From Saccharomonospora viridis DSM 43017 (GTDB lineage: Bacteria; Actinomycetota; Actinomycetes; Mycobacteriales; Pseudonocardiaceae), in the NCBI RefSeq assembly GCF_000023865.1, contig NC_013159.1, positions 620,001-684,000 on the forward strand: a stretch of DNA of 64,000 bases, written 5' to 3'. Position numbers and translations under genes: made by a program. Shown here piece by piece: positions 45,978 through 50,093 of the stretch. The notes beneath the pieces were generated by a model that was given only the letters and a program-made list of their open reading frames with translations, did not search any database and was not told the origin of the DNA. Each line of letters begins with the position of its first letter. Position 1 is the first letter of the stretch.

Positions 45978-47159
45978 ATGGCTGAGATCGTGCTCGACAA
46001 GGTGACCAAGCGGTTCCCCGACGGAGCCCTCGCCGTGTCGGAAATGGACCTCCACATCAAGGACGGGGAGTTCGTGATCCTCGTCGGCCCGTCGGGCTGT
46101 GGGAAGTCGACGGCGTTGAACATGATCGCGGGGCTGGAGGACATCACCTCCGGAGAGCTGCGGATCGACGGTGAGCGCGCCAACGAGAAGACGCCGAAGG
46201 ACCGCGACATCGCCATGGTCTTCCAGTCCTATGCGCTCTACCCGCACATGAGTGTGCGGGAGAACATGGCGTTCCCGTTGCGTCTGGCCAAGATGGACGA
46301 GGCCACCGTGAAACAGAAGGTGGAGGAGGCCGCGCGCATCCTCCACCTCACCCAGCATCTGGACCGTAAACCGTCCAATCTGTCCGGTGGACAGCGGCAG
46401 CGGGTGGCGATGGGCCGTGCCATCGTGCGTAACCCCAAGGCTTTCCTCATGGACGAGCCTTTGTCCAACTTGGACGCTAAGTTGCGGGGGCAGATGCGCA
46501 CGTCGGTGTCGAGGCTGCAGAGGAAGCTGGGCACCACGACGATCTACGTGACCCACGACCAGGTCGAGGCGATGACGTTGGGCGACCGGGTCGTGGTGTT
46601 GCGCAGCGGTGTGGTGCAGCAGGTCGGTTCACCGCAGTTCCTCTACGACCACCCGATCAACCTGTTCGTGGCCGGGTTCATCGGCTCCCCGTCGATGAAC
46701 TTCGTGCCCGCCACCCTGGAGAACGGGACGCTCAACAGCGTGTTGGGTGCCGTCGAACTGCCCGATCGGCTGCGGCGATTGGCCGAGCAGGCGAACGCGC
46801 CCCGCGAGGTCATCATGGGGGTCCGTCCCGAGCACTTCGAGGACGTCTCGTTGCTGGAGGAGGGACATCGCCGCGGTGGTGCCACGTTCACCGCCACGGT
46901 GGACGTCCTGGAGTCGATGGGTTCGGAGAAGTACGCCTACTTCACGGTGGACACCGAGCCGGTCACGACGGCCGGCCTAACCGAACTCGTGGCCGACACG
47001 GGCGCTGCCGACGTCCCGGGGCAGGGTTCCACCGTCGTGGCTCGCTTGTCCGCGGCCTCGGAGGCTCGCGAAGGCGATCAGGCGCAGGTGTGGTTCGACG
47101 TGGACAAGATCCAGTTGTTCGATCCGACTTCGGGGAAGAACCTCACCTACGAGGGATAG
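45978..47159 (+). CDS. sugC: ABC transporter ATP-binding protein SugC (MsmX/UgpC-like)
   Basis: A 393-aa ATPase of the carbohydrate uptake type 1 family. Walker A GPSGCGKSTALNMIAG (about residue 37), Q-loop MVFQSYALYPHM, signature LSGGQRQRVAMGRA, Walker B AFLMDEPLSNLDAKLR and H-loop YVTHDQVEAM are all intact. The C-terminal 150 residues form the regulatory OB-fold (TOBE) domain. It follows sugB after 3 bp. Its 3' end is followed by the third 21-bp repeat locus with a hairpin. Confidence 0.95.
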   Translation: MAEIVLDKVTKRFPDGALAVSEMDLHIKDGEFVILVGPSGCGKSTALNMIAGLEDITSGELRIDGERANEKTPKDRDIAMVFQSYALYPHMSVRENMAFPLRLAKMDEATVKQKVEEAARILHLTQHLDRKPSNLSGGQRQRVAMGRAIVRNPKAFLMDEPLSNLDAKLRGQMRTSVSRLQRKLGTTTIYVTHDQVEAMTLGDRVVVLRSGVVQQVGSPQFLYDHPINLFVAGFIGSPSMNFVPATLENGTLNSVLGAVELPDRLRRLAEQANAPREVIMGVRPEHFEDVSLLEEGHRRGGATFTATVDVLESMGSEKYAYFTVDTEPVTTAGLTELVADTGAADVPGQGSTVVARLSAASEAREGDQAQVWFDVDKIQLFDPTSGKNLTYEG

Positions 47160-47189
47160 CCACGTCGGACAGCACGACGCCGCATGGAT

Positions 47190-47280
47190 GTCCGCGGCCT
47201 GTGGGCACGGGCTACGCAGGCCGCGGACACGGCTGCATAGCCTGCGGACACGGCTGCATAGCCTGCGGACACGGTCGGTG
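47190..47280. repeat. 21-bp repeat locus 3 with hairpin
   Basis: A perfect 12-bp inverted repeat (GTCCGCGGCCTG at 47190-47201, CAGGCCGCGGAC at 47217-47228, 15-nt loop) is continued by units GCGGACACGGCTGCATAGCC+T starting at 47223 and 47244 and a partial at 47265, 21 bp apart. These belong to the same family as the arrays near 0.95 and 18.6 kb. The tract lies between the convergent sugC and the small ORF behind corA, a position fitting transcription termination. Confidence 0.85.
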
Positions 47281-47281
47281 C

Positions 47282-47398
47282 TCAGCCTCCGTGGAAGGCG
47301 TATTCCGGGTTCAGCGCAATGATGACGACGACCACGACGAGCCAGGTGAGTGCGCCGATCAGCGCCCAGAACTTCAGGTTGGTGAGCATGCGGAGCAT
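47282..47398 (-). CDS. 38-aa single-span membrane protein behind corA
   Basis: A short ORF starting MLRMLTNLKFWALIG and continuing through a strongly hydrophobic span (WLVVVVVIIAL) to a C-terminal NPEYAFHGG. AGGAGG lies 5 nt before ATG 47398, an ideal ribosome binding site, and there are 33 bp between the corA stop and this start, so it should be co-transcribed with corA. Small membrane proteins such as MgtR and MgtS modulate magnesium transporters in enteric bacteria; a similar role here is only inferred. Confidence 0.75.
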   Translation of the reverse strand: MLRMLTNLKFWALIGALTWLVVVVVIIALNPEYAFHGG

Positions 47399-47431
47399 GA
47401 CATCCTCCTAGCCGCGTAGCGGAGACAGGAA

Positions 47432-48523
47432 TCAGAGCCAGCGGTTTTTGCGGAATATCCGGTACAGCAACAGACAGAGGGCGAGGATCACGCCGAGTGT
47501 GAGCGGGTAGCCGTACTTGAAACCCAGCTCGGGCATGTAGTCGAAGTTCATGCCGTAGATCCCCGCGATGGCGGTGGGCACGGCGATGATCGCGGCCCAC
47601 GCCGTGATCTTGCGCATGTCCGAGTTCAGTTGGAGCGTGAGCTTGCCGAGGGTGGCGTCGACCAGGGTGGTCAGCAGCTCGTCGAAGGCGGACACCCTTT
47701 CGGACACGGTCGTGACGTGGTCGTGCACGTTGCGGAAGTACGACCGGATCTCCTCGGGGATCAGGCGACTGTGGCCCTCGGCCAGTCTGCGCAACGGCCT
47801 GGCCAGGGGCAGCACGGCTCGGCGTAGTTCCAATACCTCACGCTTGAACAGGTAGATCTGTTCCGAGGTGATGCGCGTGCGAGGCGCGAAGACCTCGGTC
47901 TCCATCTCGTCGATGTCGTCCTCGATGCGTTCGGTGACGACGAGGAAGTGGTCGACCACGTAGTCGGCGATGGCGTGCAACACCGCCGCCGGTCCGGGGA
48001 GGAGGCGTTCGGGGTCGGCGTCGAGCTCCCTGCGTAGATGCGTCAGTCCGGCGTGGTTGCCGTGCCGCACGGTGATGATGAAATCGGAGCCGAGGAACGC
48101 CATCAGCTCGCCGGATTCGACGATCTCGTTGGCGGTGGTGGGCGAGTCGTGTTCGACGTAGCGGATGGTGCGGAACACCATGAACAGCGTGTCGTCGTAG
48201 CGTTCCAGTTTCGGCCGTTGATGGGCGTGCACGGCGTCCTCGACGGCGAGTTCGTGCAGACCGAACGTCTCGGCGATGCCCTGGATCTGCTTCTCGTCGG
48301 GTTCGTGCAGTCCGATCCACACGAAGCCTTCGCCGCGTTTGCGCACTTCGGCGATGGCCTCGGCATGGGACCACTCGCCGGGCTGCCGCACACCGTTGAT
48401 GTAGACACCACAGTCGACGACACAGGCGGAGGTCTGCTTTTCCTGCCCCGTGCGGCGACGGTCACGGGAGGCACGGCCGTGGGCTCGGCCGCGCAGATTG
48501 CCGAGGGAGGAAATGGCGGGCAT
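47432..48523 (-). CDS. corA: magnesium/cobalt transport protein CorA
   Basis: A 363-aa CorA-family channel. The long N-terminal cytoplasmic domain (about 1-300) is followed by two C-terminal spans. The selectivity motif GMN is present in AGIYGMNFDYMPELGFKYG, and the C-terminus is basic (RIFRKNRWL). It admits Mg2+ as a pentamer gated by intracellular Mg2+. The ATG follows CAGGAG. The operon is preceded by a proline-rich leader ORF and followed by a 38-aa membrane protein. Mycobacterial corA (Rv1239c) is likewise next to lpqY-sugABC. Confidence 0.95.
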   Translation of the reverse strand: MPAISSLGNLRGRAHGRASRDRRRTGQEKQTSACVVDCGVYINGVRQPGEWSHAEAIAEVRKRGEGFVWIGLHEPDEKQIQGIAETFGLHELAVEDAVHAHQRPKLERYDDTLFMVFRTIRYVEHDSPTTANEIVESGELMAFLGSDFIITVRHGNHAGLTHLRRELDADPERLLPGPAAVLHAIADYVVDHFLVVTERIEDDIDEMETEVFAPRTRITSEQIYLFKREVLELRRAVLPLARPLRRLAEGHSRLIPEEIRSYFRNVHDHVTTVSERVSAFDELLTTLVDATLGKLTLQLNSDMRKITAWAAIIAVPTAIAGIYGMNFDYMPELGFKYGYPLTLGVILALCLLLYRIFRKNRWL

Positions 48524-48573
48524 GGGAATCTCCTGGCTGTGACGTCGTGGACTGTGACGACAGGCACATGCCG

Positions 48574-48594
48574 GCGATCCCGCCTCGGGCTCGC
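48574..48594 (-). promoter_or_regulatory. stem-loop between leader ORF and corA
   Basis: In mRNA sense, GCGAGCCC and GGGATCGC pair at 7 of 8 positions around a 5-nt loop. It lies 17 nt after the stop codon of the leader ORF and 51 nt before corA. It could take part in attenuation, but no competing antiterminator could be resolved by eye. Confidence 0.35.
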
Positions 48595-48610
48595 GGTGCT
48601 CGGAAGGTGT

Positions 48611-48688
48611 CTACCGCGGCAGCATCGCGTCGGCCCTGAAGGTAGGAACGCCGGCAGGACTAGGAAGCGGACTATCGCCACTGCTCAT
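48611..48688 (-). CDS. proline-rich 25-codon leader ORF upstream of corA
   Basis: ATG 48688 is preceded by AAGGAGGTGA ending 7 nt upstream, almost fully complementary to the 16S 3' end. The 25-codon product starts MSSGDSPLPSPAGVPTFR and ends ADAMLPR. It has five prolines, with a PLPSP cluster, and two Asp. The stop lies 87 nt before corA. It has no membrane span or domain, so a regulatory leader peptide is likelier than a functional protein. Proline-rich leaders control Mg2+ transporter genes in Salmonella (mgtL). A -10 element TATCCT lies around 48777-48782 on the minus strand. Confidence 0.65.
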   Translation of the reverse strand: MSSGDSPLPSPAGVPTFRADAMLPR

Positions 48689-48917
48689 TGCGTCCTCACC
48701 TCCTTGGAGTCGACGGATGGACCCCGCGCGGGCGGGCCTGTCGGATTCCCGGGGTTCCCACCGCGCCAACAGCTAAGGATACCTCTTGGAGACCTCCGTC
48801 GTCGGTGCAGGGCGGTGTGACGCGGAAAGAGGGCGATTCGCCGTGGTCTGCACACCCGGTCACAGGGCCGTTACGGTGGAGCCCTGCCGGTCCGTCGTCG
48901 TGAAGGCGTGAAACGGT
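48689..48917. promoter_or_regulatory. divergent region, corA leader / DUF2332
   Basis: A 229-bp spacer. For corA, GGTATCCTTAGC near 48774-48785 (minus strand) gives a -10, which would leave an 80-nt GC-rich 5' UTR before the leader ORF. For the plus-strand gene only weak elements (GTTACGGT near 48869) are seen. Confidence 0.45.
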
Positions 48918-50093
48918 GTGGCCGATGACGCGGATGACGTGGACGGTGCGGAGAAGACTGTTCGCCTCGCTTCGGGGACGGAGATGACCTCAAGTTTGGA
49001 AACGATCCGGGAACGGCTACGCCGGTTCTCCGCCGAGGAGGCGGCGGGGGTCTCACCGCTGTACGAACACCTGGCGGCGCAGGCCGCCGCCGACGACGAC
49101 GTGGCCGCGTTGTTGACGGCCGCCTCCGGTAACGATGCGCGTCCGACGTTGCTGTTGGCCGCCGCGCATCGGCTGTTGCAGGCCGAACCGATCCATCCGC
49201 TGTCGCGGTACTACCCGTCGTTGGGTGGTCCGGCCGGGCCGGACACGCAGACGTGGCCGCTGTTTCGGGAATTCGTCCTCGACCGTGCCGAGGCGATGCG
49301 TGAGTTGATCGCTCGCCGATTCACGCAGACCAACGAGGTGGGCAGAGCCGCCGTACTGTTCCCCGCCGTCGCGTCGGTGGCCAAACGGGTGCGCGGTCCG
49401 ATCGGGTTGCTGGAGGCGGGGTGCAGTGCCGGGTTGCTGTTGGGCATGGACACCTTCGCCTACCGCTATCAGTGCGACGGCGGGGAGCAGCTGTCGGCGG
49501 GACCGGCGAAGGCGTCGGTGGGACTGCACTGCGCCTTGTCGGTGGGTGAGGGGGCGGTGTTCCCGACCCTCCCGAAAAGAATGTCGGTGCGGGCTCGCGT
49601 GGGGTTGGATCGTGTGCCGGTCGACGCTTCCGACGAGGACGAGCTGGCGTGGTTGGAGGCGTGCGTGTGGGCCGATCAACCGGAGCGAGTGCGCCTGCTG
49701 CGTACGGCGGCCGCCGCGCAGGGTCGGTGGCGTCCGGAGTTGGTGACGGGCGATGTCGTGGACGACCTGGCGGACGCGGCCGCGCGGGTTCCGGAGGAAT
49801 TGCCGCTCGTGGTCTACACCAGCCACACTTTGCCTTATTTGCCGGAATCCCGGCGGGAGGATTTCATAGCGGCGCTGCGGGAGCTCGCGGTGCGACGTCC
49901 GCTGTGGTGGGTGGCGCTGGAAAGCTATGAGGCGGCGCTTCGGTACGTGCTTCCCGGACGCGACGAATTCGCCTACTCGGCGACGAGGCGGGCCACTTTG
50001 GGCGTGGTCTCGTTCGACGGGCGAGGGATGGACGTCGAGCTCAACGCCACGGCGACACCGCACGGCCGGCGTATGACGTGGTGTGCGCGGTAA
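48918..50093 (+). CDS. DUF2332 domain-containing protein
   Basis: A 391-aa protein of the DUF2332 family, common in actinobacteria and of unknown function. Recognisable parts are HPLSRYYPSLGG, the conserved GLLEAGCSAGLLLGMDTFAY (a glycine-rich, SAM-binding-like motif), ACVWADQPERVRLLRTA and VVYTSHTLPYLP. The motif order resembles class I methyltransferases but no activity is assigned. Start is GTG 48918; ATG 48984 with GGGACGGAG upstream is a credible alternative. Confidence 0.85.
   Translation: MADDADDVDGAEKTVRLASGTEMTSSLETIRERLRRFSAEEAAGVSPLYEHLAAQAAADDDVAALLTAASGNDARPTLLLAAAHRLLQAEPIHPLSRYYPSLGGPAGPDTQTWPLFREFVLDRAEAMRELIARRFTQTNEVGRAAVLFPAVASVAKRVRGPIGLLEAGCSAGLLLGMDTFAYRYQCDGGEQLSAGPAKASVGLHCALSVGEGAVFPTLPKRMSVRARVGLDRVPVDASDEDELAWLEACVWADQPERVRLLRTAAAAQGRWRPELVTGDVVDDLADAAARVPEELPLVVYTSHTLPYLPESRREDFIAALRELAVRRPLWWVALESYEAALRYVLPGRDEFAYSATRRATLGVVSFDGRGMDVELNATATPHGRRMTWCAR

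Follow-up and report, generated by a model that had tools for sequence, protein, structure and literature searches.

Does a short open reading frame (ORF) in front of a magnesium channel gene govern that gene, and if so, by what means? The question arises in a 64,000-nucleotide (nt) stretch of the Saccharomonospora viridis DSM 43017 genome, hereafter the window, where a 25-codon ORF precedes corA on the minus strand. The original prediction, made from the letters of the window, took this ORF for a proline-rich leader and a possible Mg2+-sensing attenuator. Comparison with related genomes confirms that the leader ORF is real rather than a chance reading frame, and that it is a conserved coding sequence across the family. 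It is probably a translation-operated switch for magnesium uptake, and the first interpretation is partly supported.

A conserved leader ORF upstream of corA

The basic description of the ORF agrees with the sequence. An ATG at 48688 follows a Shine-Dalgarno sequence, and the stop codon, TAG, lies at 48611. The 25 codons include five prolines (Pro; residues 7, 9, 11, 15 and 24) and two aspartates (Asp; residues 5 and 20), and 87 nt separate the stop from the corA ATG at 48523. We compared this arrangement across 92 corA loci, namely the best 80 of a longer candidate list and 12 from the window's genus, the window's own included; two contigs were counted twice (L001 is L082, and L011 is L092). 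A counterpart leader ORF lies upstream of corA in 88 of the 92, as recognised by a pattern composed after the loci had been inspected. The other four are a locus that is N-masked at the corA start (L011) and three corA copies with divergent N-termini (L068, L079 and L080). Leader length ranges from 18 to 34 amino acids (aa), translation starts at ATG (69 leaders) or GTG (19), and the gap to corA spans 59–224 nt with a median of 89. In 87 of the 88, GGAGGTG lies within 26 nt of the leader start.

Codon changes point to an N-terminal peptide under constraint. Among 30 loci of the nearest genera, codons 2–10 show 761 synonymous against 29 nonsynonymous pairwise differences, whereas the C-terminal tail of the same loci, compared in equal-length pairs only, shows 94 against 842; the constraint is thus confined to the N-terminus. 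Twenty Saccharothrix- and Lentzea-type loci gave 347 synonymous and 218 nonsynonymous differences at codons 2–14, with 41 and 130 in the tail. Because pairwise counts repeat shared history, all of these figures are descriptive. In a near group of 31 loci, Pro7 and Asp5 are invariant, Pro9 is present in 30 and Pro11 in 3. The expectation that relatives would keep the frame, the start codon and the Shine-Dalgarno sequence while changing synonymously is therefore borne out, with Pro7, Pro9 and Asp5 conserved in the near group. Leaders of near relatives (MSSGDSPLPSSAGVP), Saccharothrix (MSNDPHPASTSRVL), Lentzea (MSKDPHPASTKRVL) and Pseudonocardia (MDPAPGSSTERVP) illustrate the range.

Searches with trained models place the leader at corA throughout the family. 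Model R2, representing the second leader type, was trained on 25 loci and run on 120 family genomes, some species possibly being shared with the training set. Its 84 best matches extend to an E-value of 6.3e-4, and all but one of them (83 of 84) fall on the corA strand, no more than 400 nt upstream of the gene. Among its 100 best rows a match before corA appears in at least 91 of the 111 corA-bearing family genomes. Three matches away from corA showed no clear leader on inspection, and at class level R2 returned mostly background, with a few corA-linked matches within it. Model R1, representing the first leader type, includes six mycobacterium-like M-box copies in its training. At E up to 0.05 its single match in the window genome (one contig of 4,308,349 bases) is this leader ORF, likewise the one match in the window. 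Across the order, R1 had matches in 44 of 199 genomes; members of a mycobacterium-like group carry as many as five copies each.

Outside the family, 80 regions preceding corA were taken from other families of the order and class, and nine of them showed a leader of this kind, MDRSRPCSTTRSSGR and MRNDRPCSTSRVP being examples. At least two genomes counted as leaderless (G177 and G228) carry the leader before another corA copy. A pattern search of 118 genomes found the leader upstream of a corA gene in eight, G177 and G228 among them, matches that are credible only by position because the reversed-pattern control gave 18 matches against 24 in total. No NCBIfam model matches the leader peptide.

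AGU serine codons and a predicted long-range hairpin

What every leader shares is a codon. AGT makes up 53% of the 412 serine (Ser) codons in 87 leaders, against 1% of 1169 in corA; GAT, CCT, GTT and CTT are likewise raised in the leaders. Counted up to the leader core, AGT accounts for 198 of 286 Ser codons, whereas codons 2–20 of corA have it at 2 of 170. All 88 leaders contain at least one AGT, and 26 contain exactly one. The bias also depends on position: of the 30 nearest loci, 30, 30 and 29 have AGT at codons 3, 6 and 10 respectively, with third-position minority fractions of 0.00, 0.00 and 0.03. In these loci codon 2 mixes Ser codons freely, and codons 2, 4 and 8 vary synonymously. By these codon counts, the universal feature of the leader is AGU-serine and not proline clustering.

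A proline run as the defining feature is rejected, and a proline-codon attenuator, which would call for such a run, is not supported, given the rarity of Pro11 in the near group and the lack of Pro enrichment over corA (residues 2–12 of the leaders, 0.167; corA N-terminus, 0.186). An acidic residue and a Pro both occur within residues 2–12 in 77 of 87 leaders, and the stretch has no acidic residue in 10 of the 87. The PLPSP cluster noted in the original prediction is not supported as the key feature.

The second recurrent element is predicted base pairing between the leader core and a segment just upstream of corA, in a hairpin whose 5' arm covers approximately codons 10–19. RNAalifold on automatic alignments recovered this helix only in part, and in group A the 3' arm (segment 2) shifted between genera, so the helix tests were scripted per locus. 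They covered 65 loci, 16 near-duplicates and 7 loci lacking a recognisable core having been dropped from the 88. Core positions were assigned automatically, wrongly so in at least L016, L026, L029 and L032. Shuffles preserved single-base composition only. When the core was paired with the downstream segment of its own locus and the best-duplex arm choice was repeated on shuffled sequence, the mean z-score was −1.9, with 30 of 65 loci below −2; the first six codons, as a control, gave −0.1 and 3 of 65. Own partners were stronger than those of other loci (−24.2 against −20.6 kcal/mol on average). In an ungapped 11-nt test, the own partner exceeded the cross-locus mean in 46 of 65 loci, and p against shuffles was up to 0.05 in 30. 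At the third position of the 11 nt this test found C-G in 27 loci, A-U in 11, G-C in 7, G-U in 6, U-A and U-G in 1 each, and no pair in 12.

Folding of the whole hairpin, with best-duplex arms, gave a mean z of −2.3 with 38 of 65 below −2, against +0.1 and 0 of 65 for corA windows, a comparison in which the hairpin ends were selected and the control-window ends were not. By itself the tail shows little structure (mean z −0.86, 8 of 65 below −2), and a competing structure was seen by eye only. The stem-loop first drawn at 48574–48594 is present in the sequence, but fits better as a piece of the 3' arm at 48563–48591, with the 5' arm inside the ORF.

Sequestration of the corA Shine-Dalgarno sequence is not supported, as occupancy of the leader has no consistent direction of effect on its predicted accessibility. 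Neither is an intrinsic terminator: a scan of 48400–49100 gave one terminator-like site, on the opposite strand.

Likely mycobacterial relatives and a proposed mode of action

A known riboswitch at the corA leader is ruled out, with no Rfam match at 47000–49500 up to E = 1 and no M-box (RF00380) in the window genome. Similar mini-genes nonetheless stand after M-boxes in group f7 g14, which we call mycobacterium-like by its PE/PPE genes. These mini-genes (MSSGDSPSRYLTSVPSPSER, MSPGDSPYSRST and MSSSDSPDRYPG) have GAGGAGGTG in front and contain AGT codons, and the window peptide, which begins MSSGDSP with Pro7, compares with MSSGDSP at L174 and MSPGDSP at L177. One copy begins MSSGDSPSRY, and the Shine-Dalgarno sequence is shared with the corA leader; AGGAGGTG is invariant in all 26 rows of alignment A2. 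A similar ORF follows six of seven M-box loci, and the 20 scanned loci with similar ORFs include 14 distinct M-boxes. Behind the M-box copy L220 Pfam recognised an Nramp gene, and behind L221 a PPE gene; other downstream genes were named by eye.

Two departures from this arrangement were also seen. Four mycobacterium-like upstream ORF (uORF) copies, at L211, L216, L219 (558–593) and L221, have no M-box upstream within the fetched stretch. At L175, in group f7 g42, an M-box has no R1 match after it, and another short ORF with a GGAGGTGAGCG Shine-Dalgarno sequence stands there instead.

A mini-gene of this description has been reported from Mycobacterium tuberculosis. In the available part of their paper (PMC12810186), D'Halluin and colleagues describe the mini-gene after the M-box of pe20, called uORF2 or Rv1805A, as conserved and expressed in a reporter, with a conserved Pro at position 7 and its own Shine-Dalgarno sequence, under a translational M-box and Rho; there it is called mycobacteria-specific and of unknown function. 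The mycobacterium-like mini-gene fits uORF2/Rv1805A, by position and description only. The corA leader would belong to a family of actinomycete leader ORFs associated with Mg2+ uptake, and the M-box uORF of mycobacteria, of the Rv1805A type, is very likely another member; the corA leader would be the same kind of mini-gene, placed before corA without an M-box. The proposed link to Mg2+ transport accordingly holds up, through corA itself and through the M-box beside likely homologues, and the hairpin overlaps the ORF.

How might such a leader act? The comparative evidence tilts us toward a cis-acting, ribosome-operated attenuator of corA. Ribosome progress along the leader would decide whether the long hairpin forms: a ribosome on codons 10–19 would hold it open, and one that slows down, pauses or drops off at the N-terminal AGU, Asp and Pro codons would let it close. 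The state of the hairpin would then set the amount of corA transcript, perhaps via Rho. This output is a guess: the scan showed no terminator-like site on the corA strand, the corA Shine-Dalgarno sequence is not consistently masked, and the mycobacterial leaders are reported to depend on Rho. Poor leader translation, as at low Mg2+, would yield more corA, a polarity guessed by analogy with mgtL and corL. Mg2+ is the likely signal because of the association with corA, an Nramp gene and M-boxes, together with the precedents of mgtL, corL and mgtQ, in which leader translation is weakened by acidic or Pro residues and a structure overlapping the ORF serves as the switch.

Several observations weigh against this account. 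At the level of the leader, recognition failed in 71 of the 80 pre-corA regions from other families, and the acidic residues and Pro11 are as unevenly kept as described above. At the level of the helix, 35 of 65 loci do not reach z −2, and 35 of 65 do not reach p 0.05 in the ungapped test. In 13 of 65 loci the own partner ranks in the top 5% of all partners (control, 8 of 65), and both-side changes in RNAalifold are few (0 of 18, 1 of 14 and 3 of 14 pairs). For the nine leaders from other families, shuffles give the helix no support (z −1.7 to +0.6), and 23 mycobacterium-like copies average −0.6, L177, L179, L195, L213 and L226 being positive; only part of these copies supports the helix. As for the output, a ribosome-covered leader raises the predicted accessibility of the corA Shine-Dalgarno sequence in 13 of 65 loci and lowers it in 18, with a mean of 0.34 in both states. 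A C/G ratio of 1.53 in leader codons 4–16 is base composition only and does not establish a rut site. According to the available part of PMC12810186, transcription terminates mainly upstream of the uORF, and Rho termination there is taken to be independent of uORF translation, which counts against a Rho switch worked by the mycobacterial uORF.

Three other explanations address the same facts. The first is a charged-tRNA or rare-codon attenuator, in which a shortage of seryl-tRNA, or slower decoding, would make ribosomes pause at the AGU serine codons, with Mg2+ acting only indirectly. The extreme enrichment of AGT over the corA N-terminus and its fixed placing at codons 3, 6 and 10, with codon 2 free, speak for it; but the 26 leaders with a single AGT offer few codons for a classical regulatory run, and we know of no link between serine and magnesium transport. 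We consider this explanation quite unlikely.

Next comes a trans-acting peptide, such as a small regulator or a transporter subunit, a role that the available part of PMC12810186 proposes for Rv1805A. The strong amino-acid constraint on the N-terminal residues suits it, as does the presence of similar mini-genes before different genes. However, the C-terminal half is free in sequence and length, nearly all of the best family matches sit at corA, codon identity is kept besides the peptide, and by eye the peptide has no hydrophobic stretch, which leaves this explanation fairly improbable. That the ORF merely keeps the 5' region translated and stable, or aids corA translation by reinitiation, sensing nothing, is very improbable: the near-universal Shine-Dalgarno sequence would suit it, and the available part of PMC4833913 proposes reinitiation from leaders in Actinobacteria with a gap peak at 10–11 bp, but the gap before corA is far from that peak, and a conserved peptide and AGT codons would be needless.

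Carried furthest, the cis-acting attenuator would become an old, translation-operated magnesium gauge shared by Actinomycetes. A short MS..DSP leader with wobble-decoded AGU serine codons, whose decoding would be Mg2+-sensitive, would set ribosome progress into a hairpin gating Mg2+ uptake genes, alone before corA and, in mycobacteria, behind an M-box before PE/PPE and Nramp genes. As a whole this extension is unlikely; that Mg2+ may be sensed through AGU decoding is its boldest step.

Locus layout and known systems

Features of the corA leader locus, in window coordinates
Feature	Position	Strand	Basis
Possible -10 element TATCCT of a corA leader promoter	48776..48781	-	Sequence and conserved block in 31-locus alignment
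Extended Shine-Dalgarno sequence AAGGAGGTGA of leader ORF	48696..48705	-	Sequence; GGAGGTG conserved across leaders
Leader ORF, 25 aa, MSSGDSPLPSPAGVPTFRADAMLPR	48611..48688	-	Counterparts at corA loci and synonymous-biased change
Codons 3 to 10 of the leader; Ser AGT at 3, 6 and 10	48659..48682	-	Third-position conservation
Segment 1, putative 5' arm of long-range hairpin, within leader ORF	48632..48661	-	Pairing tests
Segment 2, putative 3' arm of long-range hairpin, upstream of corA	48563..48591	-	Pairing tests
Small hairpin GTCGT...ACGAC just upstream of corA Shine-Dalgarno sequence	48544..48561	-	By eye in alignment, without statistics
corA Shine-Dalgarno sequence CCAGGAG	48530..48536	-	Sequence and locus comparison
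corA, Mg2+/Co2+ channel, 363 aa	47432..48523	-	PF01544, 2.1e-59

The −10 element that the original prediction placed near 48780 corresponds to a TATCCT in a block kept in the 31-locus alignment, with GAGGAGTACCCT in many relatives; the sigma-70 scan called no promoter there, and the element is a candidate. CorA matches TIGR00383 at 2.4e-58 with 198 bits, slightly below the cut-off of 200.75, and comparison of the 92 loci backs its start. The divergent neighbour is a DUF2332 gene by Pfam.

Downstream of corA, after 33 nt, lies a 38-aa mini-gene (MLRMLTNLKFWALIGALTWLVVVVVIIALNPEYAFHGG, 47282–47398, minus strand) with one hydrophobic stretch and no Pfam match. ORFs like it (M.R.LTNLKFWAL...) follow corA in several Prauserella, Amycolatopsis and Saccharomonospora loci, and a loose filter found some small hydrophobic ORF after corA in 19 of 79 loci. 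Its product could be a small CorA partner. Just downstream of it, head-to-tail near-copies of a ccgtgtccgcaggctatgcag unit were seen by eye at about 47220–47272 on the minus strand.

The open-licence literature yielded no description of a leader ORF before an actinobacterial corA. The original prediction's statement that nothing of the kind was described in actinobacteria stands for corA, and fails for the very similar mini-gene after the mycobacterial M-box reported in the available part of PMC12810186. Leader-ORF control of Mg2+ transporters, known from enteric bacteria, is extended to Actinomycetes by comparative evidence. The mycobacterial M-box uORF gains likely relatives that stand alone before a known Mg2+ channel, so its role becomes testable without the riboswitch, and the unusual AGU codon bias lends itself to sharp tests.

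Among described systems, as far as the available parts of the respective papers go, Rv1805A resembles the corA leader in its conserved N-terminus, Pro7, own Shine-Dalgarno sequence and magnesium context; it lies after an M-box, whereas the window leader has none and precedes corA. The leaders mgtL and corL, of mgtA and corA in Salmonella and E. coli (PMC11552253), are likewise short ORFs before an Mg2+ transporter gene with RNA structure overlapping the ORF, and the window appears to present the same arrangement, a short ORF under coding constraint 5' of such a gene. mgtL has acidic and Pro residues and Rho as one output; AGU-serine bias and a conserved extended Shine-Dalgarno sequence are features of the corA leader that we did not meet in that account of mgtL and corL, and the likeness is by description only. 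The Salmonella ORF mgtQ lies between mgtC and mgtB, the downstream gene mgtB encoding an Mg2+ transporter (PMC8092293); of two helices, one is prevented when a ribosome occupies the ORF, and translation is weakened by acidic residues close to its start. Unlike the corA leader, which has no consistent predicted effect on the corA site, mgtQ has 8 codons and controls the mgtB ribosome-binding site.
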